Shown here: in pieces, positions 4,699 through 44,184 of the stretch
Layout of the letters: each line of letters begins with the position of its first letter
Numbering within the stretch: the stretch's first letter is position 1
Source of the DNA: an uncultured Elusimicrobia bacterium
GTDB lineage: Bacteria > Elusimicrobiota > Elusimicrobia > Elusimicrobiales > UBA9959
DNA length: 46,455 nucleotides
Reading direction: 5' to 3'
Assembly (NCBI GenBank): GCA_903889965.1
Contig: CAISZM010000009.1
Coordinates: forward strand, 1 to 46,455
Made by a program: the position numbers and the translations under genes
Notes under the pieces: generated by a model
Database searches by the model: none
Told to the model about the DNA's origin: nothing
The model's input: the letters and a program-made list of their open reading frames with translations, nothing else

Positions 4699-4704
4699 TA
4701 TAAT
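4699..4704 (+). promoter_or_regulatory. TATAAT box 7 bases before the GH57 start (leaderless type)
   Basis: A perfect TATAAT is followed by 7 bases and then the ATG at 4712. There is no Shine-Dalgarno between them and no clear TTGACA upstream. Transcription would start at or next to the ATG. Confidence 0.55.
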
Positions 4705-4711
4705 TACACTG

Positions 4712-5788
4712 ATGGAAAAACATCACGCCTCTCACAGCAGGTTTTTCGCGCTGCACGCCCATTTTTACCAGCCTCCCCGCGAGAATCCCTGGACCGGCCA
4801 GATAGACCCCCAGCCCTCCGCCTGGCCTTTCCACGACTGGAACTCCCGCATAGCGCGGGAATGCTACCTGCCCAACGCCTGCGCCAGGATAAACGATTCC
4901 TCGGGCCGCGTTCTCCAGCTCGCCAATAATTACCTGCACATGAATTTCAACTTCGGGCCCACGCTTTTCTCCTGGCTGGAGAAAAACTACCCTTTCTACT
5001 ACAGGAAGATAATACAGGCCGGCCGCGACTCGCTGGAACGCACGGGCCATTCCAATGCCATAGCCCAGGCGTATAACCACATGATAATGCCGCTGGCCTC
5101 TTTCCAGGACCAGCTCACGCAGGCCCTCTGGGGCATAAAGGACTTCGAGCACAGGTTCGGCTTCAAACCCGAAGCTATGTGGCTGCCCGAGACCGCCGCG
5201 TCGGACGACACGCTCCGCCTGATGGTGGACCTGGGCATGAAATACGTGATACTTTCCCCCTACCAGGCCGAAAAGATAAAAGCGCACAACGCGCACGCGT
5301 GGGAGGACGTCTCCTCCGGGGATTTCGACACCACCCGGCCCTACTCATGGCACGACACGCTTCCCGACGGCACCCGCATAAAGAACCGCAGCCTGGCCGT
5401 GTTCTTCTACGACGGCCCCCTCTCGAAAGCCGCGGCCTTTGAAGACCTCACCCGCGATTCCTCCGCTTTCGCCGAGCGCGTGGAGGGCTGCTACAGGCAC
5501 GGCAGCCAGGGGCCCCAGCTGGTCAGCATGGCCGTCGACGGAGAGACCTTCGGCCACCACCATAAGTTCGGCGAGATGACCCTGGCCCACGCCTTCCTGC
5601 ACGAGCTTAAGAAGCGCGGGATAGAGACCGTGAATTTCGGCCAGTACCTGGCCGCGAACCCCCCCGCGGCACGAGGTGCGCGTAAAGCCCGGCCCGGACG
5701 GCGAAGGCACCGCCTGGAGCTGCGCGCACGGGGTGCGCCGCTGGAAGGGGGGCTGCGATTGCGGAAGGGAGGACAGCTTCAACCTTAA
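4712..5788 (+). CDS. GH57 glycoside hydrolase, N-terminal part (catalytic domain), cut off by a frameshift
   Basis: This frame carries the GH57 catalytic domain of COG1449-type alpha-amylase/alpha-mannosidase-like proteins: FFALHAHFYQPPRENPW at residues 11-27, the nucleophile Glu in MWLPETAASDD (E160) and the acid/base Asp in MAVDGETFGHHH (D276). Homology ends at about residue 319 (AANPP). The remaining Arg-rich tail is out of frame. The true continuation (HEVRVKPG) lies in the next frame, read from 5676. One extra C in the C7 run at 5659-5665 explains the break; six C would read NPPRHEVRVK. Together the two parts make an intact protein of about 819 residues acting on alpha-glucans. It may be a sequencing slip or a true lesion. 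Confidence 0.85.
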   Translation: MEKHHASHSRFFALHAHFYQPPRENPWTGQIDPQPSAWPFHDWNSRIARECYLPNACARINDSSGRVLQLANNYLHMNFNFGPTLFSWLEKNYPFYYRKIIQAGRDSLERTGHSNAIAQAYNHMIMPLASFQDQLTQALWGIKDFEHRFGFKPEAMWLPETAASDDTLRLMVDLGMKYVILSPYQAEKIKAHNAHAWEDVSSGDFDTTRPYSWHDTLPDGTRIKNRSLAVFFYDGPLSKAAAFEDLTRDSSAFAERVEGCYRHGSQGPQLVSMAVDGETFGHHHKFGEMTLAHAFLHELKKRGIETVNFGQYLAANPPAARGARKARPGRRRHRLELRARGAPLEGGLRLRKGGQLQP

Positions 5789-7169
5789 CTGGCGCCTCCC
5801 CTTCAGGGCCGCCCTCAACAGCCTGCGCGACGCCGCCGCCGACATTTACTCCGCCGAGGGGGCCAAGTTTTTCCGCGCGCCCTGGGAAACCAGGAACGAT
5901 TACGTTTCCCTGATGCTCGACCGGTCCGGCGGGACCCGTGACGCTTTTTTCGAAAAACACTCCCGGCGGCCGCTTGAAAAAGCCGAAAAAACAAGGGCAC
6001 TGGAACTGCTGGAGATGCAGAGGCACGCGATGTTCATGTTCACCAGCTGCGGCTGGTTCTTCTCCGACATCTCCCGCATTGAGGCCGTTCAGAACCTGCG
6101 CTACGCCGCTCGCGCCGCGGAAACCATGCGCGAACTCGGTTTCGAGAACGCCGACCGCGGTTTCATGTCCCTGCTCGAGATGGCCCATTCGAACTACCCC
6201 GAGGCCGGGGACGGGCTTAAGCTTTATCACAAGATACTGTCAGAGAACGCCATGGCGCGCCAGAAAGCGGCGGCCCTGCTGATAGCGGAAACCACGCTTT
6301 GCGGCGATGAGCCGCCGACGGAGGGGTCCGTCCGCTCCGAAGAACGCATGAACAGGGACGGAGTGCTCTACCTGCGCGGGAAAGTTCCCGCCCCGGGCCC
6401 GGAGGAACCGTCCCACTTCTCCTTCTGCTACCTGCGCCGCGACGAAGAATTCCCGCTGATGTTTTTCTCCGGCAGCGGAGGCTCGGCCCGGTTCGGCGAG
6501 ATATTCGCCCTGGGCGAGCCCGCCGCCATCCTGGCCGCGCTGGAAAAAGAGCCGGGGACAGCTCGCGTCACTTTCGACGATTTCTCCTGGGAGGAGCGCA
6601 CCCTTTACGCCTGGATGCTGGCCGACGCGGCCAAGCGGAGCCACTCGGCCGCGATCTTCAAGATCCTCGACGACTACCTCTACCTGCTGGCCCGCCTTCC
6701 CGGCCGCGCGCTGGCCTCATGGGCCCCGCTGCGGGGCCAGGCGGCCATCTACGCCCGCCAGGCCGCGGAAATAGTTTTCGCGAGGTCGCTGCGCTCGGGC
6801 TCCCCCGGCGAAATCGAGAAGCTGGCCGTCCTTGCCGCGCGCATCAAAGCCGCGGGGCTGGAAGCGGGCTTCGACCCTTACCCCGAGGCCGCCTCGACCC
6901 TTGCCCTGAACACGGCCGCCGCGGCCATATCGTCCCCCTCCGCGCAAACGCTCGCGCCGCTCGTAAACCTGCTTAAGGCCGCGCGCGCCCTGGGCGCCCA
7001 TGACCTCATGTTCCACCTTCAGAACTGCCTTGCGGACCTCTTCGCCTCGGCGGAGAAGAACGCCCTCCCGCCCGACACGGCCGCATCGGTAAAGGAATTG
7101 TACTCCCTGTCGGGACTGATAATAGAAAGGTTCAACAGCAGGCTGGAAGAAATGGCGGCGAAGAAGTAA
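5676..7169 (+). CDS. GH57-linked DUF3536 domain, C-terminal part of the same broken gene
   Basis: This frame continues the GH57 protein after the slip at 5659-5665. It begins with TAWSCAHGVRRWKGGCDCG, the conserved junction after the catalytic domain in GH57-DUF3536 proteins, and the rest is a mostly helical domain of about 480 residues. The listed ATG at 5676 is internal to the natural protein, and there is no ribosome site in front of it. The mature protein would be cytosolic; no signal peptide is seen in the N-terminal part. A strong two-way terminator follows. DUF3536 has no assigned activity; its fusion to GH57 suggests glucan handling. Confidence 0.8.
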   Translation: MRVKPGPDGEGTAWSCAHGVRRWKGGCDCGREDSFNLNWRLPFRAALNSLRDAAADIYSAEGAKFFRAPWETRNDYVSLMLDRSGGTRDAFFEKHSRRPLEKAEKTRALELLEMQRHAMFMFTSCGWFFSDISRIEAVQNLRYAARAAETMRELGFENADRGFMSLLEMAHSNYPEAGDGLKLYHKILSENAMARQKAAALLIAETTLCGDEPPTEGSVRSEERMNRDGVLYLRGKVPAPGPEEPSHFSFCYLRRDEEFPLMFFSGSGGSARFGEIFALGEPAAILAALEKEPGTARVTFDDFSWEERTLYAWMLADAAKRSHSAAIFKILDDYLYLLARLPGRALASWAPLRGQAAIYARQAAEIVFARSLRSGSPGEIEKLAVLAARIKAAGLEAGFDPYPEAASTLALNTAAAAISSPSAQTLAPLVNLLKAARALGAHDLMFHLQNCLADLFASAEKNALPPDTAASVKELYSLSGLIIERFNSRLEEMAAKK

Positions 7170-7180
7170 CAGGCGGAAAC

Positions 7181-7220: not shown

Positions 7221-7231
7221 TTCAGACGGGG

Positions 7232-9878: not shown

Positions 9879-11120
9879 TCAGTCCGCCGCTTTGGTTCCA
9901 TCATCGGTTATAGCCGGTTCGGGCTGGAAAAAATCGGCCGTGGGCGCCGTGGAACTGGAGTAGAACCAGTCATACTTGGCCTGGTAGGCCTTGATAGCGC
10001 CCTGGTCGCTTACGAAAGCCACGTTCTCGAAGGAATTGACGCTGGCGTTGGTGGTCCAGTTAAAAGAGCCGGTTTCGAGTATTTTCCCGTCCAGGATAGC
10101 GAACTTGTTATGCATGGCGCCTTTGTCGGTACGGCCGCGCCTCACGCGAAAGTCCACCCCGCCGTCGAAAACATACTTGGCTATCGCGGAGGTCTTGGCC
10201 ATTGCCTCATCCATCATAAAGCGAACCTTGACCCCGCGCTGTTTGGCGCGGATAATGGCGTCGCCCAGCGGCTTAGATGAGAAGGTAAAGGTGACCGCAT
10301 CCACGCTGATCCGGGCCGCGTCTATAATAGCGGCAAGCCGGTTCTCGGTGCCCGAGCCCGGGGAAAAGAGGTAGGCGGGCACAGGCACGCCGTTAAGGGA
10401 CTGCTCGGGTGACGGATCCTGCGGCGGCACGCCGTAATACCCCTCCGGGAGCTCCGCCGGGCAGGGGCCCTGAGCCACCGGGCGGGCCTTGGACCACATC
10501 CACTCGAAATAATCGGCATAAGCCTTCACGTAAATAGGGTTACGGGCCACCAGCATGTTCTCATAGTTGGAGAAAGTGGCGCCGAAAGTCCAGTTGTAGG
10601 AGCCGAGCGTGGCGATGGCGCCGTCATAGACGCATATCTTGTTGTGGTTGACGCCGTACGCGCGGGTGCCGCGCAGGGTGCGTACTTCGATATTGCCGGC
10701 GTCGATCAGGCGTTTAACCTGGTCGTCCGCGCGCGGAAAAACATGGTGCTCGTCGATTATCACGCGCACCTTCACCCCGCGCGCCACGGCGCGGAGCAAA
10801 GCGTCCGGATCGTCCTTAAGATTCATGCTGAACATCGCTATGTCGACGCTCTGGCTCGAGGCGTCTATGATCTTTCCCGTGACGTCGTTAAGGTAGGCGA
10901 AAGCGTAATCCGGGACCTGGCTAAAATCGCCTCTTGAGAAAACTTGGGAGGGAGCGCCGATCGCCGGGGGCTCCGCCAGGTCAGGGACAACCGGTACCCC
11001 GGTAAAGCTGCGGGCGATGTCCGTTAACGAAAGAGGGGCGGTTTGCGGCGCGGGGGCCGCTAAAAGGTTGAGAGGGAAAGCGCAACACAGAAGCAGGAGC
11101 AAGAGGCGTTTATTGACCAT
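9879..11120 (-). CDS. Secreted phospholipase D-like protein with two HKD motifs
   Basis: The 413-residue protein starts with a clear signal peptide (MVNKRLLLLLLCCAFPLNLLA), so it acts outside the cytoplasm. It has two PLD-like domains. The first HKD motif is NHNKICVYDGAIATLGSYNW (about residues 170-190) and the second is MHNKFAILDGKILETGSFNW (about 345-365). Both keep His, Lys, Asp and the GSxNW that follows. The family includes phospholipases, cardiolipin synthases and Nuc-type endonucleases; two secreted domains of this size fit a phosphodiesterase or nuclease. I chose the ATG at 11120 because the signal peptide begins there. A longer frame to 11195 only adds a non-signal stretch through the promoter. 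Confidence 0.87.
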   Translation of the reverse strand: MVNKRLLLLLLCCAFPLNLLAAPAPQTAPLSLTDIARSFTGVPVVPDLAEPPAIGAPSQVFSRGDFSQVPDYAFAYLNDVTGKIIDASSQSVDIAMFSMNLKDDPDALLRAVARGVKVRVIIDEHHVFPRADDQVKRLIDAGNIEVRTLRGTRAYGVNHNKICVYDGAIATLGSYNWTFGATFSNYENMLVARNPIYVKAYADYFEWMWSKARPVAQGPCPAELPEGYYGVPPQDPSPEQSLNGVPVPAYLFSPGSGTENRLAAIIDAARISVDAVTFTFSSKPLGDAIIRAKQRGVKVRFMMDEAMAKTSAIAKYVFDGGVDFRVRRGRTDKGAMHNKFAILDGKILETGSFNWTTNASVNSFENVAFVSDQGAIKAYQAKYDWFYSSSTAPTADFFQPEPAITDDGTKAAD

Positions 11121-11127: not shown

Positions 11128-11133
11128 ATTTTA
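11128..11133 (-). promoter_or_regulatory. TAAAAT box 7 bases before the PLD start (leaderless type)
   Basis: On the minus strand, TAAAAT is followed by 7 bases and the ATG at 11120, with no Shine-Dalgarno. Confidence 0.5.
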
Positions 11134-13341: not shown

Positions 13342-14273
13342 TGCTTCGCTCCCGCGCGCCGCCACAGCAGCCACATAAAGAACGGGGCCCCGGCCAGGGC
13401 CATAATGACGCCGGCGGGCACCTCCGCCGGCAGAAAGATAACCCTCCCGGCGGCGTCGGCCGCGGTAAGGATCGCGGCGCCGCCCAGTGCCGCCGCGGGG
13501 ATCATCGTCCTTGCCGACGGCCTCGTTATAAGGCGGATCATATGCGGAGTCATAAGTCCGACGAAACCGATGGTCCCCCCGATGGCTACCGCGGCCGAGG
13601 TTGCCGCGCAGGCCAGCGCGAAGAATATAACCCTTTCGCGCGCCGGGTCGGCCCCCAGGTGGTAGGCCTTTTCCTCCCCCAGGGCCATGGCGTCAAGGGC
13701 CCGCCAGCGTGAAAAAGCGAGTCCGGCGCAGACCGTTATTATGGCCCCCGAAACGGCCACGACTTCCGGCTCGACGGTATAAAGGCCGCCCATCACGAAA
13801 TAAAGAATGGAAAATGAGCGTTCGCGAGCCGCGCTCAAAGCGAGCATTACCAGAGCAGAGAGAAAAGCGCTTACAGCCACGCCAGCGAGCACCAGCCCGG
13901 CGTCGGACATGCGTCCGGCCAGCCTCGCGAGCCAATAGGAAAAGAAGGTGGCTCCGAAAGCGCCGCAGAACACCGCGGCGAAGAACAGCGGGGAAGTCCT
14001 CTCGATCCCGGCCAGGAAGCAGAAAACGGCCGCCGCGGTTGCGCCGGCGGAGGTGCCCAGTATGTACGGGTCGCTCAGGGGGTTCTTCAGTACTCCCTGG
14101 AAAAGCGCGCCGGCCAGCCCGAGCCCGGCCCCTACGGCCAGCGCGGCCAGGGTACGCGGCAGGCGCAGGTAAAGTATGACAGACGGGTCCGAAAGCCAGG
14201 CGGGTCCGGCCGCCAGGGAAAAAAGGCAGGCCGCCGCCAGCGCGGCCAGGATCACGGCTTTATTTTTGCCCAT
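13338..14273 (-). CDS. btuC: ABC transporter permease, FecCD/BtuC family
   Basis: The 311-residue inner-membrane permease has eight to ten hydrophobic helices. Family features are LRLPRTLAALAVGAGLGLAGALFQGVLKNPLSDPYILGTSAGA in the first third (split here by the LRLPR start) and the coupling-helix region GFVGLMTPHMIR near residues 240-251, which contacts the ATPase. It is shorter than E. coli BtuC (326), mainly at the N-terminus. It overlaps btuF by 14 bases and btuD by 4, so the three are one transcription unit. It imports the ligand handed over by BtuF. Confidence 0.92.
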   Translation of the reverse strand: MGKNKAVILAALAAACLFSLAAGPAWLSDPSVILYLRLPRTLAALAVGAGLGLAGALFQGVLKNPLSDPYILGTSAGATAAAVFCFLAGIERTSPLFFAAVFCGAFGATFFSYWLARLAGRMSDAGLVLAGVAVSAFLSALVMLALSAARERSFSILYFVMGGLYTVEPEVVAVSGAIITVCAGLAFSRWRALDAMALGEEKAYHLGADPARERVIFFALACAATSAAVAIGGTIGFVGLMTPHMIRLITRPSARTMIPAAALGGAAILTAADAAGRVIFLPAEVPAGVIMALAGAPFFMWLLWRRAGAKQ

Positions 14274-15084
14274 GCAGGATGTCCCTCAGTTTCTTTATCT
14301 CGCGAAAAAGACGCGGGCCGGGCCTTGTGAAAGCGTCCCGGTCGAGCGACGTGATTATCAGCCCGTTTTCGGAAGCCGGGAGCCGCGCGGCCATCGGCCT
14401 TGAAAGGAATTCATTCCGCGAGCCCGCCAGTAATATTACAGCCTCCGGCCTGGCCAGCAGCACGCGCTCCCATGAAGCCTGAAAATAGCCTTTTTTTTCG
14501 CCCGCGAAGATATTCTCTCCCCCGGCGAGCCGCACAGCGTCGGACAGGAAGGATCCCCCGCCGGTGGTCCAGCCTCCCGAGTCCTCCTCTATGTAGACCT
14601 TAACCCGCGGTCCCGGCAGCGCCGGCGGGATGGCGGCCGAAAGCGAGCGCACGAGCCTCTCTCCCGGGTCCCTGCGGCCCAGCTCGGCCGCTATAAGCCT
14701 TATGGAAGAGAATATTTCCGCCACGTTTTTTTCTTCAGGGAGGGACACGACTTTGATCCCGAGCGAAGAAAGCTTTCCGGCGCTGGCGCCGGCGGCCCAG
14801 GAGCCGGAGAATACGACATCCGGCTTAAGCGAGTAGATCTTCTCTATGTCAGGGCGCAGATAATCGCCGGTCCTCTCTATTTTGGCCGCGGCCGGCGGCC
14901 AGTCGCAAAAATTCGAAACCCCGACCAGCTCGCTCCCGGCTCCGAGGCCGAAGATGATCTCGGTATAGGACGGCATCAGCGAAACCAGGCGCCGCGCCTC
15001 GGCGGGAGCCGAAACAAGCAGCAGGGACAGGGGCGCGGCAGAAAATATCAGCCTGCGCACGATCTTTATTTTTTCCCGGTCCAT
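14260..15084 (-). CDS. btuF: Periplasmic cobalamin-binding protein, BtuF family
   Basis: The 274-residue solute-binding protein begins with a signal peptide (basic start, hydrophobic core to about residue 28, SAPAEA cleavage region). It follows the class III binding-protein pattern RRLVSLMPSYTEIIFGLGAGSELVGVSNFCDWP, with KPDVVFSG in the first lobe and WTTGGGSFLSDAVRLAGGENIFA in the second. It delivers corrinoid to BtuC. Its ATG directly follows the U-run of the riboswitch terminator, so there is almost no spacer; an AAGGG in the terminator's 3' arm is the only ribosome-site candidate. Confidence 0.9.
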   Translation of the reverse strand: MDREKIKIVRRLIFSAAPLSLLLVSAPAEARRLVSLMPSYTEIIFGLGAGSELVGVSNFCDWPPAAAKIERTGDYLRPDIEKIYSLKPDVVFSGSWAAGASAGKLSSLGIKVVSLPEEKNVAEIFSSIRLIAAELGRRDPGERLVRSLSAAIPPALPGPRVKVYIEEDSGGWTTGGGSFLSDAVRLAGGENIFAGEKKGYFQASWERVLLARPEAVILLAGSRNEFLSRPMAARLPASENGLIITSLDRDAFTRPGPRLFREIKKLRDILHGQK

Positions 15085-15121: not shown

Positions 15122-15240
15122 TTCTCCCCCTCGGAATCCCGCGCTTTGCGCGGTTCGCAGTAGACCGGGCTTAGCCTTGCGGCATCACCGTTGCGGGGCA
15201 GCCGGGGATTCTCACCCCGTTCCTCTGCGTACGTCTCTCT
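15122..15240 (-). promoter_or_regulatory. Cobalamin riboswitch aptamer
   Basis: Read on the minus strand, the segment shows the cobalamin aptamer landmarks in order: GAGGAACGGGGTGAGAATCC, CGGCTGCCCCGCAACGGTGA, and AAGCCCGGTCTACTGCGAAC. These correspond to the GGTGAAAATCC, CCCCGCAACTGTAA and AGCCCGGAGACC boxes of the family. It lies between the btuFCD promoter and the terminator hairpin. Cobalamin binding is expected to favour the terminator and shut off uptake genes. Confidence 0.92.
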
Positions 15241-15241
15241 G

Positions 15242-15271
15242 AGTATATTATGCCAAAAAAAGCGGGTTCAA
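15242..15271 (-). promoter_or_regulatory. Sigma-70-type promoter of the riboswitch-btuFCD unit
   Basis: On the minus strand TTGAAC (15266-15271) and TATACT (15242-15247) are separated by 18 bases. The -35 box overlaps the stop region of the upstream kinase gene. Confidence 0.7.
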
Positions 15272-16557
15272 TGAAGATCCGGGGCGATGTGCGCCGGCAG
15301 CGTGATTATGGCGCTGATCCCCCCGGTCGTGCGGTTGCTTATGACAAGCTCGCCGCCGTTTCTCAGAAGCAGTTCCCTGACTATCGCCAGGCCGATGCCG
15401 GTGCCGTCTTTTTTTGTGGTCATCGGCCTGCGGGAAATAACGGATATCAGTTCCGGGGTCATTCCGGGGCCGTTGTCGGAAATAACTATTTTAACGTTCT
15501 TTTCATCCGGGATTATATCCAGCTCTATCCTGCGTTCCCTCGTATTCTCCCGCACCGCTTCCACGGCGTTCTGTATTATATTGAAGCAGACCAGCTGGAG
15601 GTCGCCGCGCGGAACCATGACGGAAGCCTTAACGTCCTCGTCATAAAGCTTTACAAAACGCACCCCCTTCGAGTTGCTGGAAAAGCATATTATCGCAAGC
15701 AGGTTGCGCATGAACTCCGGCAGAAGTATGACCTCGGCCCGGTTTTCGGAAACACGTCCGAACGCCGTGATGCTGGAAAGCGTGGCGGACATCCCCGTAA
15801 CCACTTCGTTAAGGTCCTTAAGCGCCTCCTTATCCTCCTGAGTATTGTCCGCGTCAAGCGCCTGCATCTGGAGGTAGCCGGAAATGGCGGCTAAAGGGCC
15901 GCGGAGATCGTGCACGATGCGGTGCGTCATAACACCTATATGGGAAGAGGCGTTGAGCTCGGAAAACTTCTTTAACAGCAGGGCTTTTTTCTCATTCTCC
16001 TCCGCGAGCCTGTCGCGCAGGTTCGATACCATGAGATCGGTAAAATAGTACGCGACTCCCATATAACCCGTGACGGTGACAAGTATCACCAGCGTTACGG
16101 GCACGCTTTGGTAGATCTGCGCCTCGAATTGATTCATCGAGGGCAGCAGCCCCATAAGCTTTCCGACAATAACGGAAGAATAGGATATTATCGCGAGCGG
16201 AAGGCTCGATGGGGTCCTGACCCCGTACAGGGTTTCCGAGATGAGGGCGCAGAAATAAAGGAACACGAAAGGCGAGACGATGCCCCCGGTAGCGTGGATC
16301 AGCAGCGTCAGGGCAATAAAGTTCGTAAGACTGGTTACCTGGGCGATAACCACCTGGTTCCGGTCCGAGAAAAGCAAAGCCGCGTAATAGACGGCGTAGA
16401 CGACCGAACAAATGGCGGCCAGCAAAGGCAATTTATCGGAGAACGGCATGCTCTTTACGAAATGAAAGGACACTCCCCCCAAACTGAGCAGCAGGGCCAG
16501 GAGTATCTGCTTGCGCAGAAGCGCGGGACGAAGTTTTCTGGAATAGATCGAGTCCAT
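15268..16557 (-). CDS. Membrane sensor histidine kinase, orphan
   Basis: The 429-residue kinase has about six membrane helices in residues 14-175 and no extracellular sensor domain. A short coiled segment (residues 180-203) leads to the phospho-acceptor HDLRGPLAAISGYL (His216). The ATPase domain shows the N box CFNIIQNAVEAV, the G1 box DNGPGM and the G2 box GTGIGLAIV. No response regulator is adjacent. The downstream riboswitch promoter overlaps its stop. I chose the ATG at 16557 (MDSIYSRK); a GTG in frame at 16584 is possible. Signal unknown; the second kinase at 29.7-31.0 kb has a similar layout. Confidence 0.85.
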   Translation of the reverse strand: MDSIYSRKLRPALLRKQILLALLLSLGGVSFHFVKSMPFSDKLPLLAAICSVVYAVYYAALLFSDRNQVVIAQVTSLTNFIALTLLIHATGGIVSPFVFLYFCALISETLYGVRTPSSLPLAIISYSSVIVGKLMGLLPSMNQFEAQIYQSVPVTLVILVTVTGYMGVAYYFTDLMVSNLRDRLAEENEKKALLLKKFSELNASSHIGVMTHRIVHDLRGPLAAISGYLQMQALDADNTQEDKEALKDLNEVVTGMSATLSSITAFGRVSENRAEVILLPEFMRNLLAIICFSSNSKGVRFVKLYDEDVKASVMVPRGDLQLVCFNIIQNAVEAVRENTRERRIELDIIPDEKNVKIVISDNGPGMTPELISVISRRPMTTKKDGTGIGLAIVRELLLRNGGELVISNRTTGGISAIITLPAHIAPDLH

Positions 16558-17799: not shown

Positions 17800-17805
17800 A
17801 TGATA
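17800..17805 (-). promoter_or_regulatory. TATCAT box 6 bases before hypA (leaderless type)
   Basis: On the minus strand TATCAT is followed by exactly 6 bases and the hypA ATG; there is no Shine-Dalgarno. Confidence 0.5.
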
Positions 17806-31069: not shown

Positions 31070-31075
31070 TATAAT
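31070..31075 (+). promoter_or_regulatory. TATAAT box 6 bases before the AI-2E-family gene (leaderless type)
   Basis: TATAAT with an upstream TG (extended -10, TGG before it) is followed by exactly 6 bases and the ATG at 31082. The 6 bases include GGAG, but it is too close to the ATG to act as a ribosome site. Confidence 0.5.
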
Positions 31076-31081: not shown

Positions 31082-32245
31082 ATGCCAGGCAACATTCCCG
31101 CTCAGAAGCTGCTCCGGTTCGACAAGGCCCAGCTTTTTAATCTCTTTTTTTTCGGAATTCTTATATTCCTCCTGTACCAGCTGCTGCATGTACTATCCCC
31201 GTTCACGGGGGCCATACTGGTTTCGGCCACGCTCGCCCTTATCTTTTATCCGCTCAATCTCTGGTTCCGCAAAAAAGTTATAAAGAACCGCACAGCCTCC
31301 GCGGCGGCCATGACGCTCACGGCAGTGCTGACCGTGGTACTGCCGCTTATGATCTTCGGCTGGCTGCTGGTGCGGGAATCGCGGGCGCTCTACCCCAAAA
31401 CCAGCCAATGGCTTACCCACATCTCGCAAAACGACCTGCAGGTGCAGATCCCTGAAACTATAAGGGCGTACTGGGACCTGGACCTGGGGGACGTCATAAT
31501 AGGCAACCTGAAAACCCTCCAGGAAACGATAGCGAGTTCGGGAACCACTATACTTCGGAATATCTTTTTTTTCCTGGTCAGCCTCGTGGTCATGGTGTTC
31601 ACTCTTTTTATATTTTTCCGCGACGGGGAGAAATTTCTCAGCTGGCTGATAGACATAACCCCGATGGACCAGGAATACAAGCACCGGATATCCATGCAGC
31701 TGTATATCACCGCCATGGCCGTGGTGCGCGGCATGCTGCTTACAGCCGTTCTCCAGGGGATAATGGGCGCGGTAGGTTACTGGCTTGCCGGGGTGCCTGC
31801 TCCGGTACTGTTCGGAGTCCTCACGACTTTCGCCGCCATGATCCCGTTCCTGGGGACCAGCCTGGTGTGGCTGCCGCTTTCGGCCGTGATGTTCTTCCTG
31901 AAGGGGATGCCCACGGGGCTGTTCGTGCTGCTCTGGGGACTTGTCGTGGTAGGGCTGCTGGACAACGTGCTGCGGCCCATGCTCATCGGCAAGGGCGCAA
32001 AGCTGCCCGTCTTCCTGCTGTTTCTGGGAATTTTCGGAGGTCTGAAGGTTTACGGGCCGCTGGGACTCTTCCTGGGCCCGCTGCTGATCTCATGCGTTAT
32101 GGTTTTCCTTCAGATATACCGCGAAACTAAAAACATGCCGCATACCGGGCCTTATGAACGCCGCAGCCCGAAAGATCCTAAAATTATAAAGTCCGGAACC
32201 GGGATCGATATCCCCCCCGGCGGTTCAGCTTTCCCTGGCCAGTGA
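31082..32245 (+). CDS. AI-2E family transporter (PerM/TqsA-like)
   Basis: The 387-residue inner-membrane protein has the family pattern: two helices at the start (LFNLFFFGILIFLLYQLLHVLSPF), a third near residue 70, a long soluble central segment, then a dense C-terminal group of helices with FAAMIPFLGTSLVWLPL and LLDNVLRPMLIG. Family members export small molecules or act in Na+/H+ antiport; the substrate here is unknown. I chose the ATG at 31082 over an in-frame codon at 31004, which would read through the promoter. Its 3' end overlaps the convergent nuclease gene by 21 bases. Confidence 0.88.
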   Translation: MPGNIPAQKLLRFDKAQLFNLFFFGILIFLLYQLLHVLSPFTGAILVSATLALIFYPLNLWFRKKVIKNRTASAAAMTLTAVLTVVLPLMIFGWLLVRESRALYPKTSQWLTHISQNDLQVQIPETIRAYWDLDLGDVIIGNLKTLQETIASSGTTILRNIFFFLVSLVVMVFTLFIFFRDGEKFLSWLIDITPMDQEYKHRISMQLYITAMAVVRGMLLTAVLQGIMGAVGYWLAGVPAPVLFGVLTTFAAMIPFLGTSLVWLPLSAVMFFLKGMPTGLFVLLWGLVVVGLLDNVLRPMLIGKGAKLPVFLLFLGIFGGLKVYGPLGLFLGPLLISCVMVFLQIYRETKNMPHTGPYERRSPKDPKIIKSGTGIDIPPGGSAFPGQ

Positions 32246-33736: not shown

Positions 33737-35071
33737 ATGGCAAGCCCGGACATTCTTATAATTGACGACGACCCGATGGTAGGCGAACTCTCGCGCGACC
33801 TTCTTACGGACGCCGGCTATTCCGTTACTCTCGTCCAGGATTCCCTGGAGGCGATACCCACGATAAAAGCCCAGATGCCCCGCCTTATAGTGACCGATAT
33901 CATGATGCCCGGCATGAACGGAATGGACATCTGCAAACTGGTAAAATCCGACCCGGCGCTTAAGCACATCAAGATCATAATCGTGTCCGGCAAATCCTAC
34001 AAAATCGAAAAACAGCGCGCGCTGCAGTTCGGAGCCGATTTTTTCCTGCAAAAGCCTTACAACGTTGAAACCTTTTCGTCCACCGTAAAGAGCATCCTCT
34101 CCGGCGACGCCGCGGCGCTGGAGCCCGCCCCGGCCGAATGTCCCGCCCCCGAAGTGATACACGAGGAAGAGGCCGCGCAGGCGAGCGACCTTTACGCGGG
34201 CCAGCTGCGCGTAACGATATGGGGCGCCCGCGGCCTCCCCGCCGTCATTCCCAACTCAGCGTCGCGCTACGGCCGCCAGACCTCCTGCGTTTCCGTCGAG
34301 ACAAAAGAGCACCTTTTCATATTCGACGCCGGAACCGGCATAGTGGAACTGGGCAGGGAGATCGCCGCAAAAAAACGCTACTATAAGGACATCTGGATAT
34401 GCCTGACGCACTTCCACCTGGACCATATACTGGGCCTGGGCATGTTCGCCCCGCTCCACGACCCCAACTTCTCCGTCCACCTTATAGGCGCCAACGACCC
34501 GGAGAGGAGCCTTAAGGAAGTGGCGCAGTCTTCCCTGTACAGCTCCTTCGCCCTCACGAAGCAGCCGCCCAAGGCGAAGATAGATATCTATGAAATACTC
34601 GAAGACAACTACGAACTTTTTCCGGGAGTAAAACTCTCTTCCATGTACGCTAACCATCCCACCAGCACCATGATATACTCGCTGGAGACGCTCGGGAAGA
34701 AGATCGTTTACGCCCCCGACAGCGAGATCTGGGGGGACGCCACCGCCTTCCAGGACTACGACGAGAGATTGGGCATCTTCGCGCGCGGATCGGACCTGTT
34801 CATCCACGGCACGATGTACACCGATTGCGATTACGAGGCGCATAAACACGAAGGCCACTCGGGGCTTTCAACGGTAGTGGATTTCGCGGCCGAGAAGGGA
34901 CAGGTAAAGGAGCTTGTACTTTTCCACACCTCCGCGGACTACTCCGACGAGGATCTGGACAAGATGCTGGCCGACGCGAAAGCCCGCGCGCTGGCAAAAG
35001 GCTTCGCCCTCAGCTGCCGCCTCCCGGCCGAACGGGAAGCCATACTCCTCGAGGGTACCCAGCCGGTATAG
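33737..35071 (+). CDS. Response-regulator receiver fused to a metallo-beta-lactamase-fold domain
   Basis: The 444-residue protein joins two parts. Residues 1-122 are a receiver with acidic pocket DDD (10-12), phospho-acceptor D54 in VTDIMMPG and Lys106 in QKPY. After an Ala/Pro/Glu linker (125-150), residues 155-444 form an MBL domain with THFHLDH (H225, H227, D229, H230), later HGTMYTDCDYE and the final FHTSADYSDEDL. The MBL part resembles PhnP-like or cyclic-nucleotide phosphodiesterases. Phosphorylation would then control a hydrolase instead of DNA binding. Candidate partners are the two orphan kinases. It stands alone with its own terminator. Confidence 0.87.
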   Translation: MASPDILIIDDDPMVGELSRDLLTDAGYSVTLVQDSLEAIPTIKAQMPRLIVTDIMMPGMNGMDICKLVKSDPALKHIKIIIVSGKSYKIEKQRALQFGADFFLQKPYNVETFSSTVKSILSGDAAALEPAPAECPAPEVIHEEEAAQASDLYAGQLRVTIWGARGLPAVIPNSASRYGRQTSCVSVETKEHLFIFDAGTGIVELGREIAAKKRYYKDIWICLTHFHLDHILGLGMFAPLHDPNFSVHLIGANDPERSLKEVAQSSLYSSFALTKQPPKAKIDIYEILEDNYELFPGVKLSSMYANHPTSTMIYSLETLGKKIVYAPDSEIWGDATAFQDYDERLGIFARGSDLFIHGTMYTDCDYEAHKHEGHSGLSTVVDFAAEKGQVKELVLFHTSADYSDEDLDKMLADAKARALAKGFALSCRLPAEREAILLEGTQPV

Positions 35072-35948: not shown

Positions 35949-38495
35949 TTATTCCTCGCTCCACTTGATGAACAGCGGCATCAGCGCGTTAACCGCGTCA
36001 GGATGGCGTCCGATCACGCGCACCGCGAAGTCGTGCCTGCCGCTTTTGTAGCAGGGTATCTCGCCCTTGTAGACGTAGGCGTCGCCCATGCGTTCATCGT
36101 GCGCCATAGGGACGGAGCGCCCCTCCTTGAACAGCCCCTCGCCTCCGGCCACGCCGACGTGCAGCTGCACGTCCACATCCTCCGGTTTGAGGTCGCCAAG
36201 CCAGACCACGGCCCGCACTGGCAGCTTGGCCCCGGAGCGCACTTCCATCTCCGGCTTAAGCTGGTCTGTCACCGCTTTTACGCGCGGCCAGTTATCCTCC
36301 AGCTTCCTGCGCCAGCGGGCGATCTCCGCCACCCTGGTGCTGTCGGCGAACCGCACTGACGACCGGTGGGCCTTGGTGTAGAATTTTTCGTAATATTCGC
36401 GCAGCATCCGGTTGGTATTGAATTGCGGCACCAGCTTCTGCACGCACGCCTTCATCATCTTTATCCAGCCGCGCGGCAAGCCGTCCTTGTCGCGGTCATA
36501 ATAAAGCGGCGCCACCACCTTCTTTAAAAGGTTGTAAATGGACTCGGCCTCCACGTAGTCGCGTTCCTCGTCGCTGTTGTAGGATTCCGAGCCGCCTATG
36601 GGCCAGCCCACTTCGGGAGAGTACCCCTCCACCCACCAGCCGTCAAGCACGGACAGGTTCATCACGCCGTTTATTGCGGCCTTCATGCCGCTGGTACCGG
36701 ACGCCTCCAGCGGCCTTATCGGATTGTTCATCCAGACATCCACCCCCTGCACCATGTAGCGCGCCACGTTCATGTTATAGTCTTCCACGAAAATTATGCG
36801 GTTCTTGAACCGCTTGTCCATGGAAAGTTTTGCTACCGCCTTTATGTACTCCTTGCCGTGGGTGTCTGCCTGGTGGGCCTTACCCGCGAACACGAACTGG
36901 ACCGGCATTTTTTCGTCGACCACCAGTTCGATGAGGCGTTCCAGGTCCCTCATGAAAAGCGTCGCCCGCTTGTAGGTGGCGAAGCGCCGCGCGAATCCTA
37001 TCGTAAGGTACTCGGGGTTGAGCACGCTTTCAGCCTCGGCCAGCACGGTGCGGTCCGCTCCAAGGCGCTGGTGCTGGCGCTTGAGCCGCTCGCGCACCAG
37101 TTTCACCAGCTTCTGCTTGCGCAGTATATGGGTATCCCACATCTCCCGGTCGTCTATATCCCCCACCTTGCCGAAGTCGCAGGAGTCGGGTATGCCGTTG
37201 ACCCCTCCGGCCAGCGTTTTGCTGTAAAGCTGGTGATGCTCGTGGCTGATCCAGGAGCAGGTGTGCACGCCGTTCGTGATGCCCTCTATCGGGATCTCGT
37301 AGAGCGGCAGCTGCGGCCAGAGCTTGCGCCACATTTCGCGGGAGGTGTCGCGGTGCAGCAGGCTGACGGCGTTAAGGAAGGCGCACAGGCGCATAGCGAC
37401 CACGGTCATGCAGAAGCCCATGGAGGTATGCTCTTCTTTCCCTATGTCCAGGAACTCCGGGAAAGTCAGGCCAAGTTCCCTCGAGTAGCCTTCAAGGTAC
37501 TTGTGCACCAGCTCGAATTCGAAATGCTCGTTGCCGGCCATCACGGGGGTATGCGTGGTGAACGCGGAAGATGCCCAGACGGACTCGCGGGCTTCGGCGT
37601 ACGACAGGCCGCGGCTCCTCATCAGCTGGCGTATCCGTTCGAACAGCAGGAACGCGCTGTGCCCCTCGTTCACGTGGAAAACGGTGGGGTTAAGCCCCAT
37701 GGCCTCGAGCGCCCTTACGCCGCCTATGCCCAGGACTATCTCCTGGCGTATGCGGTTTTCCCTGTCTCCGCCGTAAAGCTGCTCGGTTATCGTCCGGGCC
37801 TGGGGAGAGTTCTCCGGCAGGTTGGTGTCCAGCAGGAACAGCGAAGTGCGGCCGACCGGGACCTTCCACACGCCCACCTGCACGCGCTCCCCCGCCAGGT
37901 CCACTTCCACGCGGAGCGGGCTGCCCGCGGCGTTATTCACTATCTCCACCGGCATATTGTACCAGTCGTTCTCAGGATAGTGTTCAACCTGCCAACTGTC
38001 GCGGTTAAGCACCTGCTGCACGTAGCCTTTCCGGTAAAGCAGGCCCACGCCGACGACAGGCAGCCCCAGGTCCGAGGCTGATTTGAGGTGATCGCCGGAA
38101 AGCATGCCGAGGCCGCCCGAATATATCGGCAGCCCCTCGCCTATGCCGTACTCCATCGAGAAATAGGCCACCTGCATGTCTTTGTCCTGTTCCTGGCGGT
38201 TCCGGGCGAACCAGGTATCCTTGAGCGCCATGTAGGACTCGAATTTTTGTTTTATTTCACCGAGTTTCCCCAGGAAATTCGCGTCCCTTCCCAGTTCATC
38301 CAGGCGCTCCGGCGGCAGCGTACCCAGTATCCACTTGGGGTTGCGGTGGGAGCGGTGCCAGAGATCCTCGTTCATGCTCACGAACATCATTATCGCGTCC
38401 CAGTTCCAGGTGAACCACATATTGGTGGAAAGTTCTTCCAGGGCCTTAAGGCTGTCCGGAAGGTTGGGTATGACGTTAAAGGATTTAATTTTCAT
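35949..38495 (-). CDS. Alpha-glucan phosphorylase (GT35, DUF3417-type)
   Basis: The 848-residue cytosolic enzyme releases glucose-1-phosphate from glycogen or maltodextrins using PLP. It begins with the DUF3417 domain (FNVIPNLPDSLKALEELSTNMWFTWNWDA) seen in the Thermotoga/Thermus-type phosphorylases. The catalytic part shows YFSMEYGIGEGLPIYSGGLGMLSGDHLK near residue 110, HVNEGHSAF, and the PLP-Lys motif ASGTSGMKAAINGVMNLSVLDGWW near 610. The ATG at 38495 starts homology exactly; a longer frame to 38756 runs across the tRNA gene and is wrong. It complements the branching enzyme at 7-9 kb. Confidence 0.95.
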   Translation of the reverse strand: MKIKSFNVIPNLPDSLKALEELSTNMWFTWNWDAIMMFVSMNEDLWHRSHRNPKWILGTLPPERLDELGRDANFLGKLGEIKQKFESYMALKDTWFARNRQEQDKDMQVAYFSMEYGIGEGLPIYSGGLGMLSGDHLKSASDLGLPVVGVGLLYRKGYVQQVLNRDSWQVEHYPENDWYNMPVEIVNNAAGSPLRVEVDLAGERVQVGVWKVPVGRTSLFLLDTNLPENSPQARTITEQLYGGDRENRIRQEIVLGIGGVRALEAMGLNPTVFHVNEGHSAFLLFERIRQLMRSRGLSYAEARESVWASSAFTTHTPVMAGNEHFEFELVHKYLEGYSRELGLTFPEFLDIGKEEHTSMGFCMTVVAMRLCAFLNAVSLLHRDTSREMWRKLWPQLPLYEIPIEGITNGVHTCSWISHEHHQLYSKTLAGGVNGIPDSCDFGKVGDIDDREMWDTHILRKQKLVKLVRERLKRQHQRLGADRTVLAEAESVLNPEYLTIGFARRFATYKRATLFMRDLERLIELVVDEKMPVQFVFAGKAHQADTHGKEYIKAVAKLSMDKRFKNRIIFVEDYNMNVARYMVQGVDVWMNNPIRPLEASGTSGMKAAINGVMNLSVLDGWWVEGYSPEVGWPIGGSESYNSDEERDYVEAESIYNLLKKVVAPLYYDRDKDGLPRGWIKMMKACVQKLVPQFNTNRMLREYYEKFYTKAHRSSVRFADSTRVAEIARWRRKLEDNWPRVKAVTDQLKPEMEVRSGAKLPVRAVVWLGDLKPEDVDVQLHVGVAGGEGLFKEGRSVPMAHDERMGDAYVYKGEIPCYKSGRHDFAVRVIGRHPDAVNALMPLFIKWSEE

Positions 38496-38502: not shown

Positions 38503-38508
38503 ATTTTA
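38503..38508 (-). promoter_or_regulatory. TAAAAT box 7 bases before the phosphorylase start (leaderless type)
   Basis: On the minus strand TAAAAT is followed by 7 bases and the ATG at 38495, with no Shine-Dalgarno. Confidence 0.5.
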
Positions 38509-40914: not shown

Positions 40915-41637
40915 TCAGGATATCTTATCGTTGTATTTCTTAATGTAGGTGAGGATCTCTCCGAAAAGGTCCATAACGGCCGCCGCGAACCCCTGCCAGC
41001 CGTCCAAAAATCCGCCTCTCAGGAAATAGTTCACAAGGAAACGCCGCGGCCCCCGGGAGAAGCGCATTTCAACCGGACTTTTGGCCTTAATGGTGGAGTA
41101 AAAATCCATCTTCCGCACCATGTCGGAGGCGTCATCGTACGGGTAATGCTCAAAAGCCTCACCCAGCGCGCCTATCCGCCCATCCACCTGCAAGCGCTCA
41201 TGAACATCGCGGCAGGCGAAAGAGGCATGCCCCCTTTTGAAGAACCGCAGCTGGGTGTCCGGGTACTTTCCGCCCCGGGCCAGCCAGCGGCCAAAGTAAA
41301 AATTCCTGCGCGGCGCCGTATAGGCGGCGAATTCTCCGCGCTCCGCAGCCTTCATCACGGCTTTGGCGAAAGCCGGAACGCATCTCTCGTCGGGGTCGAG
41401 GTACAGCACCCAGTCCCCTGAGCACTGCTGGACCGCGAACTGCTTATTTATATTGAGGTTGGGCTCGTTCCTGCGGACGAACACCCTGGCGCCAGCCGCC
41501 CGGGCGATCTCACCCGTGGCATCCCCGCTCTCGCAATCCACCACCACCACCTCGTATGCCCATGCTACGCTGTCGAGGCAGGCTTTGAGGTGTTTCGCCT
41601 CGTTCCTGGCTATAATGGACACGGAAATTTTAGGCAT
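40915..41637 (-). CDS. Glycosyltransferase family 2 (WaaE/KdtX-like)
   Basis: The 240-residue GT-A enzyme opens with ISVSIIARNEAKHLKACLDSV and has the donor-site VVVVDCESGDATGEIA and the metal motif YLDPDERC near residue 80. Size and the NINKQFAVQQCSGDWVLYLDPDE segment resemble the WaaE-type LPS core beta-1,4-glucosyltransferases. I chose the ATG at 41637 (MPKISVS): a TTG five codons upstream is in frame, but it lies inside a perfect TATAAT box. It converges on the GT9-GT4 pair, so all three probably build one glycan. Confidence 0.9.
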   Translation of the reverse strand: MPKISVSIIARNEAKHLKACLDSVAWAYEVVVVDCESGDATGEIARAAGARVFVRRNEPNLNINKQFAVQQCSGDWVLYLDPDERCVPAFAKAVMKAAERGEFAAYTAPRRNFYFGRWLARGGKYPDTQLRFFKRGHASFACRDVHERLQVDGRIGALGEAFEHYPYDDASDMVRKMDFYSTIKAKSPVEMRFSRGPRRFLVNYFLRGGFLDGWQGFAAAVMDLFGEILTYIKKYNDKIS

Positions 41638-41643: not shown

Positions 41644-41649
41644 ATTATA
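41644..41649 (-). promoter_or_regulatory. TATAAT box 6 bases before the GT2 start (leaderless type)
   Basis: On the minus strand TATAAT is followed by exactly 6 bases and the ATG at 41637; no Shine-Dalgarno. Confidence 0.55.
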
Positions 41650-41743: not shown

Positions 41744-41749
41744 TATAAT
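41744..41749 (+). promoter_or_regulatory. TATAAT box 6 bases before the amidase start (leaderless type)
   Basis: TATAAT is followed by exactly 6 bases and the ATG at 41756; no Shine-Dalgarno. It is divergent from the GT2 box about 100 bases away. Confidence 0.55.
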
Positions 41750-41755
41750 TTACCT

Positions 41756-42892
41756 ATGGTTTCCCCGGCAATTAAAACCGCCCTGGCGGCGCTGCTGCTT
41801 GCGGGCGCTTTTTCCTCCGTAAAGGCCCTTGAAATGGAAGACGGCCTGGTCTTCGGCACTCTGCCGTACCCGATAGAGATAAAACTGCCGGGAGGCCGCA
41901 AGCCCGGCGCCGTGCTTTTTGAGAGCCCCTCCAGCGAACCGACCGCTTTTGACTACGACACCGTGCTTATACAGGGCGAAATGCCCGCCCCCGCGATATC
42001 GATACGCCTGGAGACCGAAACCCGCGGCACTTTGTCGGGAGGCCAGGTTTACAAACAAGCGGCTTTCCACCGCGCCCCCGGGGGCCGCTTCTGGATGAAG
42101 TACAGCCTCCCCGGCACCCGGAGCGCGCTCCGGCTGGTCGTCACGAACCAGGATCTGAAAGAGGATTCCTCCCTGACCATTTATTCCACGGAATTCCTGC
42201 GCGCGGATTCCATGCGCGAGGAACGCGAACCCGCTGCGGCGGACACCGGCGTATCGCGGGAACCGCTTTACCTGCCGGCGGACGCCCCCTTTAACGCGGT
42301 AAGGCGGGCGCAGTGGAACGCGGCCCCCCCTAAGGAGCCGTATTCTCCGCACACCCCTTTCTATTTCACGCTCCACCACACCCAGGGCCATTATCCCAAA
42401 AACCTGGAGGAAGCTTCGGCCGAGATGCGGTTCATTCAGGACTACCACCAGAACGCCAAGGGCTGGATAGATATCGGCTACCATTTCCTTATAGACCCGA
42501 TGGGGGACATTTTCGAGGGGCGCCCTATAGGGGCGGTAGGCGCGCACGTCAAGGGCCGCAACACCGGCAATATCGGCATATCGATAATGGGAAATTACCA
42601 GCCGCCGGTGTCGGACACTTTTACCGGTTCAGCTTTAAGTTCTTTCGTGGCCCTGGGCCGCTACCTCAAAGACACCTATTCGGTCGACGTCAGCAGTTTT
42701 TACGCCCACAGGGACATCGGTCCCACGGACTGCCCGGGCAGCGACTTGTACGCGAGGAAGGAACTCCTGCGCAGCCTCATATTCGACCCGCAGACGCGGG
42801 GAATTCCGGCTGATCCGGCTTCCGCCCCGCCACTTACCCCGGCCCAGAGCCTCAGCCTGGAAAAGCTGATGCGCTACCTTTCCGGTAAATAG
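41756..42892 (+). CDS. Exported N-acetylmuramoyl-L-alanine amidase (Amidase_2 / PGRP fold)
   Basis: The 378-residue protein has a signal peptide (MVSPAIKTALAALLLAGAFSSVKA). An N-terminal beta-rich part of about 170 residues is of unknown role. The Amidase_2 domain starts near residue 185, with zinc ligands His in FTLHHTQGHYP and His plus Cys in FYAHRDIGPTDCPGSDLY (about 320-337); WIDIGYHFLIDPMGDIFEGRP follows the first ligand. It cleaves the bond between muramic acid and L-Ala in peptidoglycan. A strong two-way terminator follows. Confidence 0.92.
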   Translation: MVSPAIKTALAALLLAGAFSSVKALEMEDGLVFGTLPYPIEIKLPGGRKPGAVLFESPSSEPTAFDYDTVLIQGEMPAPAISIRLETETRGTLSGGQVYKQAAFHRAPGGRFWMKYSLPGTRSALRLVVTNQDLKEDSSLTIYSTEFLRADSMREEREPAAADTGVSREPLYLPADAPFNAVRRAQWNAAPPKEPYSPHTPFYFTLHHTQGHYPKNLEEASAEMRFIQDYHQNAKGWIDIGYHFLIDPMGDIFEGRPIGAVGAHVKGRNTGNIGISIMGNYQPPVSDTFTGSALSSFVALGRYLKDTYSVDVSSFYAHRDIGPTDCPGSDLYARKELLRSLIFDPQTRGIPADPASAPPLTPAQSLSLEKLMRYLSGK

Positions 42893-42901
42893 CCCCCAAA
42901 G

Positions 42902-42929: not shown

Positions 42930-42951
42930 GTCGCGGACAGCGCGTCCTCGT

Positions 42952-44172
42952 TCAGAGAACTTCTAAGGCCACCAGATCTTTATAGTTTTCCCGGCGGCGT
43001 ATCAGCCGCCAGGAGGACGGACCCGTTATCAGCGCCTCGGCGGCGCGCGGCCGGGAATTATACTGCGAGCTCATGGAAAAACCGTAGGCCCCGGCCGAGT
43101 AAACTACCAGCAGCCTGCCGCCGGCCGGCTCCCGCAGGACCACGTCCTGCGCCAGGAAATCCCCGCTCTCGCAGACCGGTCCTACTATGTCGTAAACGTT
43201 TTTTTCCCCGCCGCCGGTTCCCACCAGCGCCACCGGGTGCCTGGCCCCGTAGAGAGCGGGCCGTATCAGGTCGTTCATAGCCGCGTCGACGATCAGGAAA
43301 TTTTTGCGCCCCCCGCGCTTGCGGTATAGAACGCTTGTGAGCAGCGCTCCAGAGGGAGCGGCGATGGAACGGCCGGGCTCCACAATGATCTTCAGGCCCG
43401 CGCCCTTAAAAGCCCCTCCTACGGCCGCGGCCAGCGCGGAGGGGTCCGCCATTTCGGCGCCTTCCCTTACACCCCAGCCGCCTCCCACGTCGGCGTAATT
43501 AAGATTTACCCCGCGCGAAGCCAGTTTCAACAGGAAAGCCGCGAGACGCCCGGCCGCCAGCGCGTAAGGGGCGGAGGAATGCACCTGCGAGCCTATATGG
43601 AACTGCGCCCCCACCGGCCTTAAGTGTTTCGATCCCGCCGCGTACATGTAGATCTTTTCCGCTTCGGTGAAAGGCACGCCGAACTTGCTGTCCAGCCTGC
43701 CTGTGCTTATGAACTTGTGGGTGTGCGGGTCCACGTCGGGATTTATACGCAGCGAGAACGGCGCCGGTTTTTTCAGCCTGGCGGCGGCGCGCTCCAGCTC
43801 CAGCACCTCCTCGAAAGACTCCGCGTTTATGAGCAGGATGCCGGCCGCCAGGGCATATTCAAGTTCCGCCGCGGTCTTGCCCACCCCGGAAAATATTATT
43901 TTATCGGGGGCGAAGCCGGCGCGGAGCGCGCGGTAAAGTTCCCCCCCGCTCACCACGTCCGCCCCTAAGCCCTCTCCGGCCGCCAGGGCGCACAGCGCGC
44001 CGCTGGAGTTGGCCTTCATTGCGTAGCAGAAAAGCGGGTCCAGGGAACGGAAGGCCTTTTTATAGGCGGCTATCTGCTTCAGGAATACCGGCGCGGAATA
44101 GACGTAGACAGGCGTGCCGGCGCTGGCGGCTATTTTCTCCAGAAGCTGATGTTTGAAGTATTTTCCCAGCAT
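42952..44172 (-). CDS. lysA: Diaminopimelate decarboxylase
   Basis: The 406-residue PLP enzyme makes L-lysine from meso-diaminopimelate. The PLP Lys is K53 in FCYAMKANSSG. The barrel shows VDPHTHKFISTGRLDSKFGVP, QFHIGSQVHS, VGGGWGV and VEPGRSIAAPSGALL, and the active-site Cys is in GPVCESGDFLA. The C-terminal AGAYGFSMSSQYNSRPR completes the family pattern. The MxGK-start is short, with no ribosome site; a TATCAT box lies 6 bases upstream. It is read alone, towards the amidase. Confidence 0.95.
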   Translation of the reverse strand: MLGKYFKHQLLEKIAASAGTPVYVYSAPVFLKQIAAYKKAFRSLDPLFCYAMKANSSGALCALAAGEGLGADVVSGGELYRALRAGFAPDKIIFSGVGKTAAELEYALAAGILLINAESFEEVLELERAAARLKKPAPFSLRINPDVDPHTHKFISTGRLDSKFGVPFTEAEKIYMYAAGSKHLRPVGAQFHIGSQVHSSAPYALAAGRLAAFLLKLASRGVNLNYADVGGGWGVREGAEMADPSALAAAVGGAFKGAGLKIIVEPGRSIAAPSGALLTSVLYRKRGGRKNFLIVDAAMNDLIRPALYGARHPVALVGTGGGEKNVYDIVGPVCESGDFLAQDVVLREPAGGRLLVVYSAGAYGFSMSSQYNSRPRAAEALITGPSSWRLIRRRENYKDLVALEVL

Positions 44173-44178
44173 AGGCTT

Positions 44179-44184
44179 ATGATA
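44179..44184 (-). promoter_or_regulatory. TATCAT box 6 bases before lysA (leaderless type)
   Basis: On the minus strand TATCAT is followed by exactly 6 bases and the ATG at 44172; no Shine-Dalgarno. Confidence 0.5.

Follow-up and report, generated by a model that had tools for sequence, protein, structure and literature searches.

An uncultured bacterium of the order Elusimicrobiales (lineage UBA9959) carries, in the 46,455-nucleotide contig analyzed here (assembly GCA_903889965.1, contig CAISZM010000009.1; hereafter the window), nine genes in which a TATAAT-like hexamer ends 6 or 7 bases before the ATG start codon. Very probably, these boxes serve as -10 elements in promoters of the sigma-70 type that have no recognized -35 element and give rise to leaderless mRNAs. 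Such a promoter would often have a T-rich or TGn stretch directly upstream of the -10 hexamer, and with the box ending 6–7 bases before the ATG, RNA polymerase would start at the A of the AUG or about one base earlier. This placement relies on the usual distance between a -10 element and the transcription start. From the sequences we infer both the start position and leaderless translation, in which ribosomes would engage the 5'-terminal AUG itself without the help of a Shine-Dalgarno (SD) sequence, with other genes of the genome retaining leaders and SD sites. The window is the entire contig C9 (G+C content 58.9%), and the genome comprises 87 contigs and 2.24 Mb at 90% completeness.

All nine hexamers reported in the initial annotation are found at the claimed places, three with a spacer of 7 bases and six with a spacer of 6. 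On the plus strand, leaderless starts are predicted for a GH57 gene (4712–5788; box TATAAT at 4699–4704, spacer 7 to ATG 4712), a SixA-like histidine phosphatase gene (27270–27761; TAGAAT at 27258–27263, spacer 6 to ATG 27270), an AI-2E family transporter gene (31082–32245; TATAAT at 31070–31075, spacer 6 to ATG 31082), and an N-acetylmuramoyl-L-alanine amidase gene (41756–42892; TATAAT at 41744–41749, spacer 6 to ATG 41756). On the minus strand, they are predicted for a phospholipase-D/NucT-like nuclease gene (9879–11120; TAAAAT at 11128–11133, spacer 7 to ATG 11120), hypA, encoding a hydrogenase nickel chaperone (17389–17793; TATCAT at 17800–17805, spacer 6 to ATG 17793), an alpha-glucan phosphorylase gene (35949–38495; TAAAAT at 38503–38508, spacer 7 to ATG 38495), and lysA, encoding diaminopimelate decarboxylase (42952–44172; TATCAT at 44179–44184, spacer 6 to ATG 44172). 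The ninth box, TATAAT at 41644–41649, precedes by 6 bases ATG 41637 of a minus-strand family 2 glycosyltransferase gene (40915–41637), from which the amidase gene diverges. Inspection by eye agrees with the claim that no properly placed SD sequence is present at any of the nine starts; the spacer before 31082 contains GGAGA, which lies too near the ATG and is not kept in the aligned orthologues.

As for the start codons themselves, protein similarity to orthologues begins at the assigned ATG in HypA, LysA, GH57, and the phosphorylase. The HypA start is independently fixed, since the N-terminus MHEWALA is conserved in 27 of 27 aligned rows. A start caller blind to upstream sequence, which reproduced 28 of 44 annotated Escherichia coli starts, agrees at seven of the nine. 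Open reading frame tools give TTG 41652 as the start of the glycosyltransferase gene, and such upstream starts had been described as falling inside the box; instead, this TTG adjoins the box on its upstream side, as does TTG 17808, which comes from the same tools. The GH57 gene looks broken (4712–5788 and 5676–7169, plus strand): its first ~326 residues match relatives, whose frames mostly exceed 800 residues, and the remainder lies in another frame, with the break near 5676–5788. This may reflect an assembly error or real damage.

Genes were called with a hexamer model blind to upstream sequence, both in the window and in a genome sample of 40 stretches from other contigs (596,883 bases, ~27% of the genome). 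A strong box was defined as TATAAT with at most one change within the middle three bases, and was tallied for each distance from the ATG. In the window, 7 of 40 ATG genes have a strong box at spacing 6–7, compared with 0.29 (standard deviation 0.57) after dinucleotide shuffling of the upstream regions, and in the sample the figures are 19 of 397 and 2.14 (standard deviation 1.56). When any TANNNT is accepted, the same test gives 7 versus 1.20 expected in the window and 27 versus 10.2 in the sample. Among all 470 called genes of the sample, ten have the box at spacing 6 and nine at spacing 7, whereas at offsets outside 5–9 the mean is 1.72 and the highest count 4; the genome-wide enrichment check that had been set beforehand thus has a positive outcome. 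If any in-frame ATG within 75 bases is permitted, the counts are 13 and 11 of 463 genes, versus 3.11 per other offset. The leaderless-type box is genome-wide and occurs in roughly 3–5% of genes. In box frequency, the window exceeds the genome elsewhere about fourfold (7/40 versus 19/407, Fisher p = 0.005), which explains why it was noticed. Counting box-N(k)-ATG arrangements independently of genes was dropped as too noisy (TANAAT, 26 at k = 6–8 in 327 kb against ~17 expected from the other offsets).

The boxes are conserved at orthologous starts. For each gene, orthologues were sought in the 31 other genomes of the genus, and the window's own genome was excluded from the pooled box counts; ten loci were dropped as paralogues (L177–L180 and L205–L210, 25–27% identity) and four as partial or second copies (L238, L263, L264, L384). 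A strong box is present in 25 of 28 orthologues of the GH57 gene (spacing 6–9), 24 of 26 of hypA (5–9), 22 of 23 of the AI-2E transporter gene (6–10), and 17 of 23 of the amidase gene (6–10). One of the hypA misses, L233, was scored as such only for having fewer than 50 upstream bases, and its box is visible in the alignment. For lysA, a strong box at spacing 6 is found in 10 of 25 orthologues, and several others have TATCCT by eye. The SixA-like gene has a box at 5–8 in 16 of 19 orthologues with an ATG start (one more had none), and the NucT-like gene has one at 6–8 in seven of nine aligned relatives by eye, L393 and L397 being unclear. Pooled over five genes (125 rows), 59 boxes lie at spacing 6, 20 at 7, 6 at 8, and 8 at 9, and every other offset has 0–8. 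In the alignments the box, its distance, and the ATG are kept, and the surrounding bases vary freely. Outside the genus, the AI-2E box recurs at loci L054, L056, L057, L064, L067, and L068, and among the four members of genera g11 and g12, three have the HypA box (L265 is unclear); no box at that spacing was seen in 18 further aligned HypA rows. In some relatives (L152, L161–L163), the lysA start is preceded by a GC-rich stretch and a T-run with no strong box, and an apparent tRNA 3' end can be discerned by eye upstream of lysA in L152. A terminator T-run may be what gave rise to the lysA -10 region, or what it was lost to.

The sequence around the boxes and the layout of the genes would also suit promoters. 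In 32 box genes of the genome, T occupies 53–75% of each of the three positions 3–5 bases upstream of the box. TGn stands ahead of the box in 12 of these 32, versus 10 of 66 boxes located further upstream of their genes. A -35 element, for which only TTGACA was tried, was no more frequent than in shuffled sequence (at least four matches in 2 of 32 box genes; mean 2.66 versus 2.77). Only 2 of 26 box genes in this genome have a same-strand neighbor within 25 bases upstream, compared with 188 of 469 other genes, and 13 of 26 have a divergent neighbor, compared with 73 of 469. The sister family shows the same tendencies (close same-strand neighbor, 2/20 versus 89/210; divergent neighbor, 10/20 versus 42/210). 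Judged from this layout, box genes begin transcription units, and because they are rarely operon-internal and often divergent, the box probably acts as a promoter and not as a ribosome site. A motif GG.CYTTT...CC lies 72 bases before ATG 11120 of the NucT-like gene (minus strand) and 48 bases before ATG 41756 of the amidase gene (plus strand), and is seen again ahead of the amidase gene in relatives (L391–L399); it could be a regulator site.

The initial annotation proposed that two initiation modes coexist, and this is borne out in the window, where an SD 4-mer is found in 15 of 45 genes beside the box genes. Among genes boxed at 6–7, the SD 4-mer is absent in both the own genome (0/26) and the sister family (0/21). 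Neighboring genes show the converse in relatives: no box in 25, 33, and 38 orthologues of the genes at 28896 (plus), 35479 (minus), and 35814 (minus), with an SD sequence in 23, 33, and 38, respectively. The gene at 33737 (plus) has an SD sequence in 19 of 31 relatives and a box in one, and the kinase gene at 31002 (minus) has a box in 3 of 15. The 3' end of 16S rRNA with GGCTGGATCACCTCC, an intact anti-SD sequence, is found in 6 of 32 genus genomes; it was not found in the other 26, among them the own genome, and in these the end of the 16S gene may be missing from the assembly. A changed anti-SD (a 16S 3' end without CCTCC) was considered and rejected, since the sequence is intact in all six genomes in which the end was found.

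In the phosphorylase gene, SD-led and predicted leaderless forms alternate among close relatives. The window protein is 82–88% identical to proteins in records mostly named Elusimicrobia bacterium or Elusimicrobiales bacterium, and among 40 relatives a box at 5–8 is present in 11 and an SD sequence in 28. A phosphorylase tree with 41 members has 17 rows from outside the genus, 16 of them SD-led and one with neither signal; inside the genus, 12 genes are predicted to be leaderless (the window included) and 12 are SD-led. At least nine state changes are needed, four of them forced by well-supported branches; shuffled labels require 10.5 on average, with 80 of 500 shuffles as low as nine. As the observed number is little below that of shuffled labels, turnover would be fast, and the direction is only suggested by the SD-led outgroups. 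The phosphorylases of L040 and L050 are in opposite states at ~0.02 changes per residue. Two pairs (L031/L033 and L032/L037) share a core ATAATTT..TAGAAT. In the SD-led member the core lies ~30 bases further upstream with the SD sequence between, and the leaderless copy lacks the subsequent stretch that bears the SD. On a plain reading, the history would be one of repeated leader loss, with regain possible. We lean, by a small margin, towards a more general view for the Elusimicrobiales, in which leaderless initiation would be interchangeable with SD initiation, the promoter core staying in place and the stretch with leader and SD being lost or gained repeatedly inside a single genus; the extreme case would be the dgt/coaD pairs described below, whose start codons share 22–24 bp. 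Our confidence goes no further because, of five phosphorylase pairs aligned, only two clearly show the shared core and absent leader, the other three being unclear.

The box signal extends beyond this genome. A single stretch was sampled per genome: across 20 others of the genus, 13 of 230 genes have the box at 6–7, versus 0.86 per offset, and across 20 that belong to different genera in the family there is only a weak excess (9/268 versus 2.11). In the sister family f2 (13 stretches, seven genomes), the count is 21 of 234 versus 3.97 per offset, with 17 at spacing 6, and its member G090, a single contig of 1.64 Mb, has 14 of 130 versus 2.56. No signal was found in 12 stretches representing seven further families of Elusimicrobiota (3/213 versus 1.67), whose genomes were chosen by a hypA match and not drawn at random. 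An E. coli control was empty (0/44), albeit for one small 50 kb stretch. Named loci of the genus (66/408 at 6–7 versus 3.94 per offset, 14% of genes) were set aside as biased, since they mostly represent the same neighborhood, and the unselected stretches of the 20 genus genomes were preferred. Two results count against a clean distribution: the spirochaete control loci are not empty (8/314 versus 1.03), and the named Elusimicrobiaceae loci L072 and L073 have no box at 6–7 in 33 genes, with two at spacing 8. As far as the sample goes, the signal appears to belong to the order Elusimicrobiales.

The most compact arrangement occurs in G090 (L329:10652–10680), where only 23 bp separate the start codons of coaD, encoding pantetheine-phosphate adenylyltransferase, and the dGTPase gene dgt. 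The palindrome ATGATATCAT supplies TATCAT boxes on both strands, one lying 7 and the other 6 bases from its ATG. Two of nine other relatives (L401 and L409) have the same layout at 22 and 24 bp, five have the genes divergent at 30–32 bp and, as judged by eye, an SD-like stretch ahead of coaD, and the remaining two do not show the divergent pair. On the more general view given above, two divergent leaderless mRNAs would start from overlapping or adjoining -10 boxes. A scan of 3.94 Mb of loci, some overlapping, yielded seven distinct box-led pairs with start codons 22–54 bp apart, the three dgt/coaD cases among them. In L040 and L050, the divergent kinase and AI-2E transporter genes are both box-led, with 46 bp between their starts; the corresponding pair in the window has a box at 6–7 on the AI-2E side only. 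Palindromic bidirectional bacterial promoters can use a single symmetrical -10 region for transcription of either strand. The dgt/coaD region resembles these in its symmetry, but differs in that both products would be coding genes without leaders, with starts only 22–24 bp apart.

Several observations weigh against leaderless promoters as a complete account of these starts. The glycosyltransferase box is present in only 3 of 19 relatives, and 15 of 25 lysA relatives are without a strong box. At two of the nine starts, the blind caller, with its imperfect record on E. coli, chose another codon (38693 for the phosphorylase and 41652 for the glycosyltransferase). The initial annotation specified a spacing of exactly 6–7 bases; this is indeed the commonest, but among orthologues the spacing ranges from 5 to 10, with 5 and 8–10 also in use. 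The genome sample has a second peak at spacing 9 (10 of 470 genes), as high as that at 6 or 7, and such boxes would give leaders of 2–3 bases. Boxes further upstream, at leadered genes, show no -35 element either, again with only TTGACA tried (11/66; mean 2.80 versus 2.77). Finally, some genes have neither signal in relatives: 39837 (plus) has no box and no SD sequence in 23, 33584 (minus) no box and one SD in 31, and 32947 (minus) no box and two SD in 28. With several control genes in this class, the absence of an SD sequence is by itself uninformative. Many relatives of 33584, which encodes a Cons_hypoth95 methyltransferase, share an upstream element like GTTAAGGAAATGTT (L032, L033, L040, L044, L050, and others), and these genes have ATGATG starts and no SD.

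AT-rich sequence around start codons can aid initiation without an SD sequence, and the hexamer might accordingly be an unstructured landing site for ribosomes on leadered mRNAs, with the promoter further upstream. The lack of SD sequences at boxed starts and the existence of other SD-less genes in the genome would both suit such a role. It nevertheless seems improbable to us, because hexamer identity and spacing are conserved although the flanks diverge, and because box genes avoid the operon-internal positions where a landing site would be needed most. In the two informative phosphorylase pairs, moreover, the core located ~30 bases upstream, with an SD sequence in between, fits a promoter. 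Lower still do we rate the prospect that the true start codons lie downstream, on mRNAs with short leaders and a ribosome site; blind start calling is imperfect, as noted, but the onset of protein similarity at the assigned ATGs in HypA, LysA, GH57, and the phosphorylase speaks against it.

Chance occurrence of -10-like hexamers near ATGs, noticed in a box-rich window, is scarcely credible. In its favor, the window is about fourfold richer than the genome sample, and loose TANNNT boxes counted without regard to genes show little excess (window, 13 at k = 6 and 14 at k = 7 against a mean of 10.4 at other offsets; sample, 57 and 106 against 72.6). However, the independent genome sample, further genomes from the genus, and the sister family all peak at the same spacing, and orthologues conserve both box and spacing. 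Leaderless mRNAs from -10 elements placed directly before the ATG remain the reading we prefer for the box genes.

Other features of the window include a cobalamin riboswitch (15142–15272, minus strand), which scores above the Rfam cut-off and lies upstream of the gene at 14260–15084. The gene at 33737–35071 (plus strand) encodes a response regulator receiver fused to a metallo-beta-lactamase fold domain, and the reading frame at 44690–45904 (minus strand; 404 residues) has no Pfam match.

Leaderless genes are a known way of starting genes; what would be new here is their presence in this lineage and their conservation between species. The initial annotation knew of no description for the lineage, and the open-licence literature likewise yielded no earlier account of leaderless genes in the Elusimicrobiota; on transcription start in Elusimicrobium minutum, it yielded a paper about sigma-54. 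Leaderless expression would thus extend to this phylum, with a suggested limit at the window's family and its sister family. In practical terms, start finders can misplace leaderless starts, as with TTG 41652 and 17808, and the closely related phosphorylase pairs in both states offer a system in which the effect of leader loss on expression can be tested. Leaderless genes with a TANNNT motif have reportedly been found in a transcriptome study of Mycobacterium tuberculosis (PMC3898074), a member of another phylum, where transcript starts were mapped and not, as here, predicted.

The initial annotation listed Deinococcus and actinobacteria as the known leaderless lineages. Both are pertinent but the list is too short, since a survey of 953 bacterial genomes by Zheng et al. 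2011 (PMC3160421) detected leaderless genes in 207 of them, which belong to nine named groups apart from one genome unclassified in RefSeq. That unclassified genome left aside, the lineage goes unmentioned in the main text of the paper, which contains none of the terms Elusimicrobi, Termite, Rs-D17, and TG1. As for the TA-led genes in that study, in which a TA-like signal ~10 bp upstream is taken to denote leaderless genes, SD and TA signals exchange steadily between orthologues. A gene-by-gene history with the same promoter core, as given here for the phosphorylase, does not feature in the sections of PMC3160421 considered. A table of anti-SD types in PMC10783764 lists the phylum Elusimicrobiota. 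The closest counterpart is found in Deinococcus-Thermus, where experiments show that TANNNT -10 motifs adjacent to open reading frames act as leaderless promoters (PMC12340547, 2025). As described in that report, the -10 element lies a few bases before the ATG, no -35 element is required, an SD sequence is unneeded, and leaderless genes coexist with classical ones, all of which resembles the situation proposed here. Unlike in Deinococcus radiodurans, where almost one third of open reading frames are concerned (PMC12340547), the fraction in the present genome is roughly 3–5%. The two systems also differ in phylum and in the basis of the assignment, which is experimental in Deinococcus-Thermus and drawn from sequence for the Elusimicrobiales, and the boxes in the latter are nearer to TATAAT.

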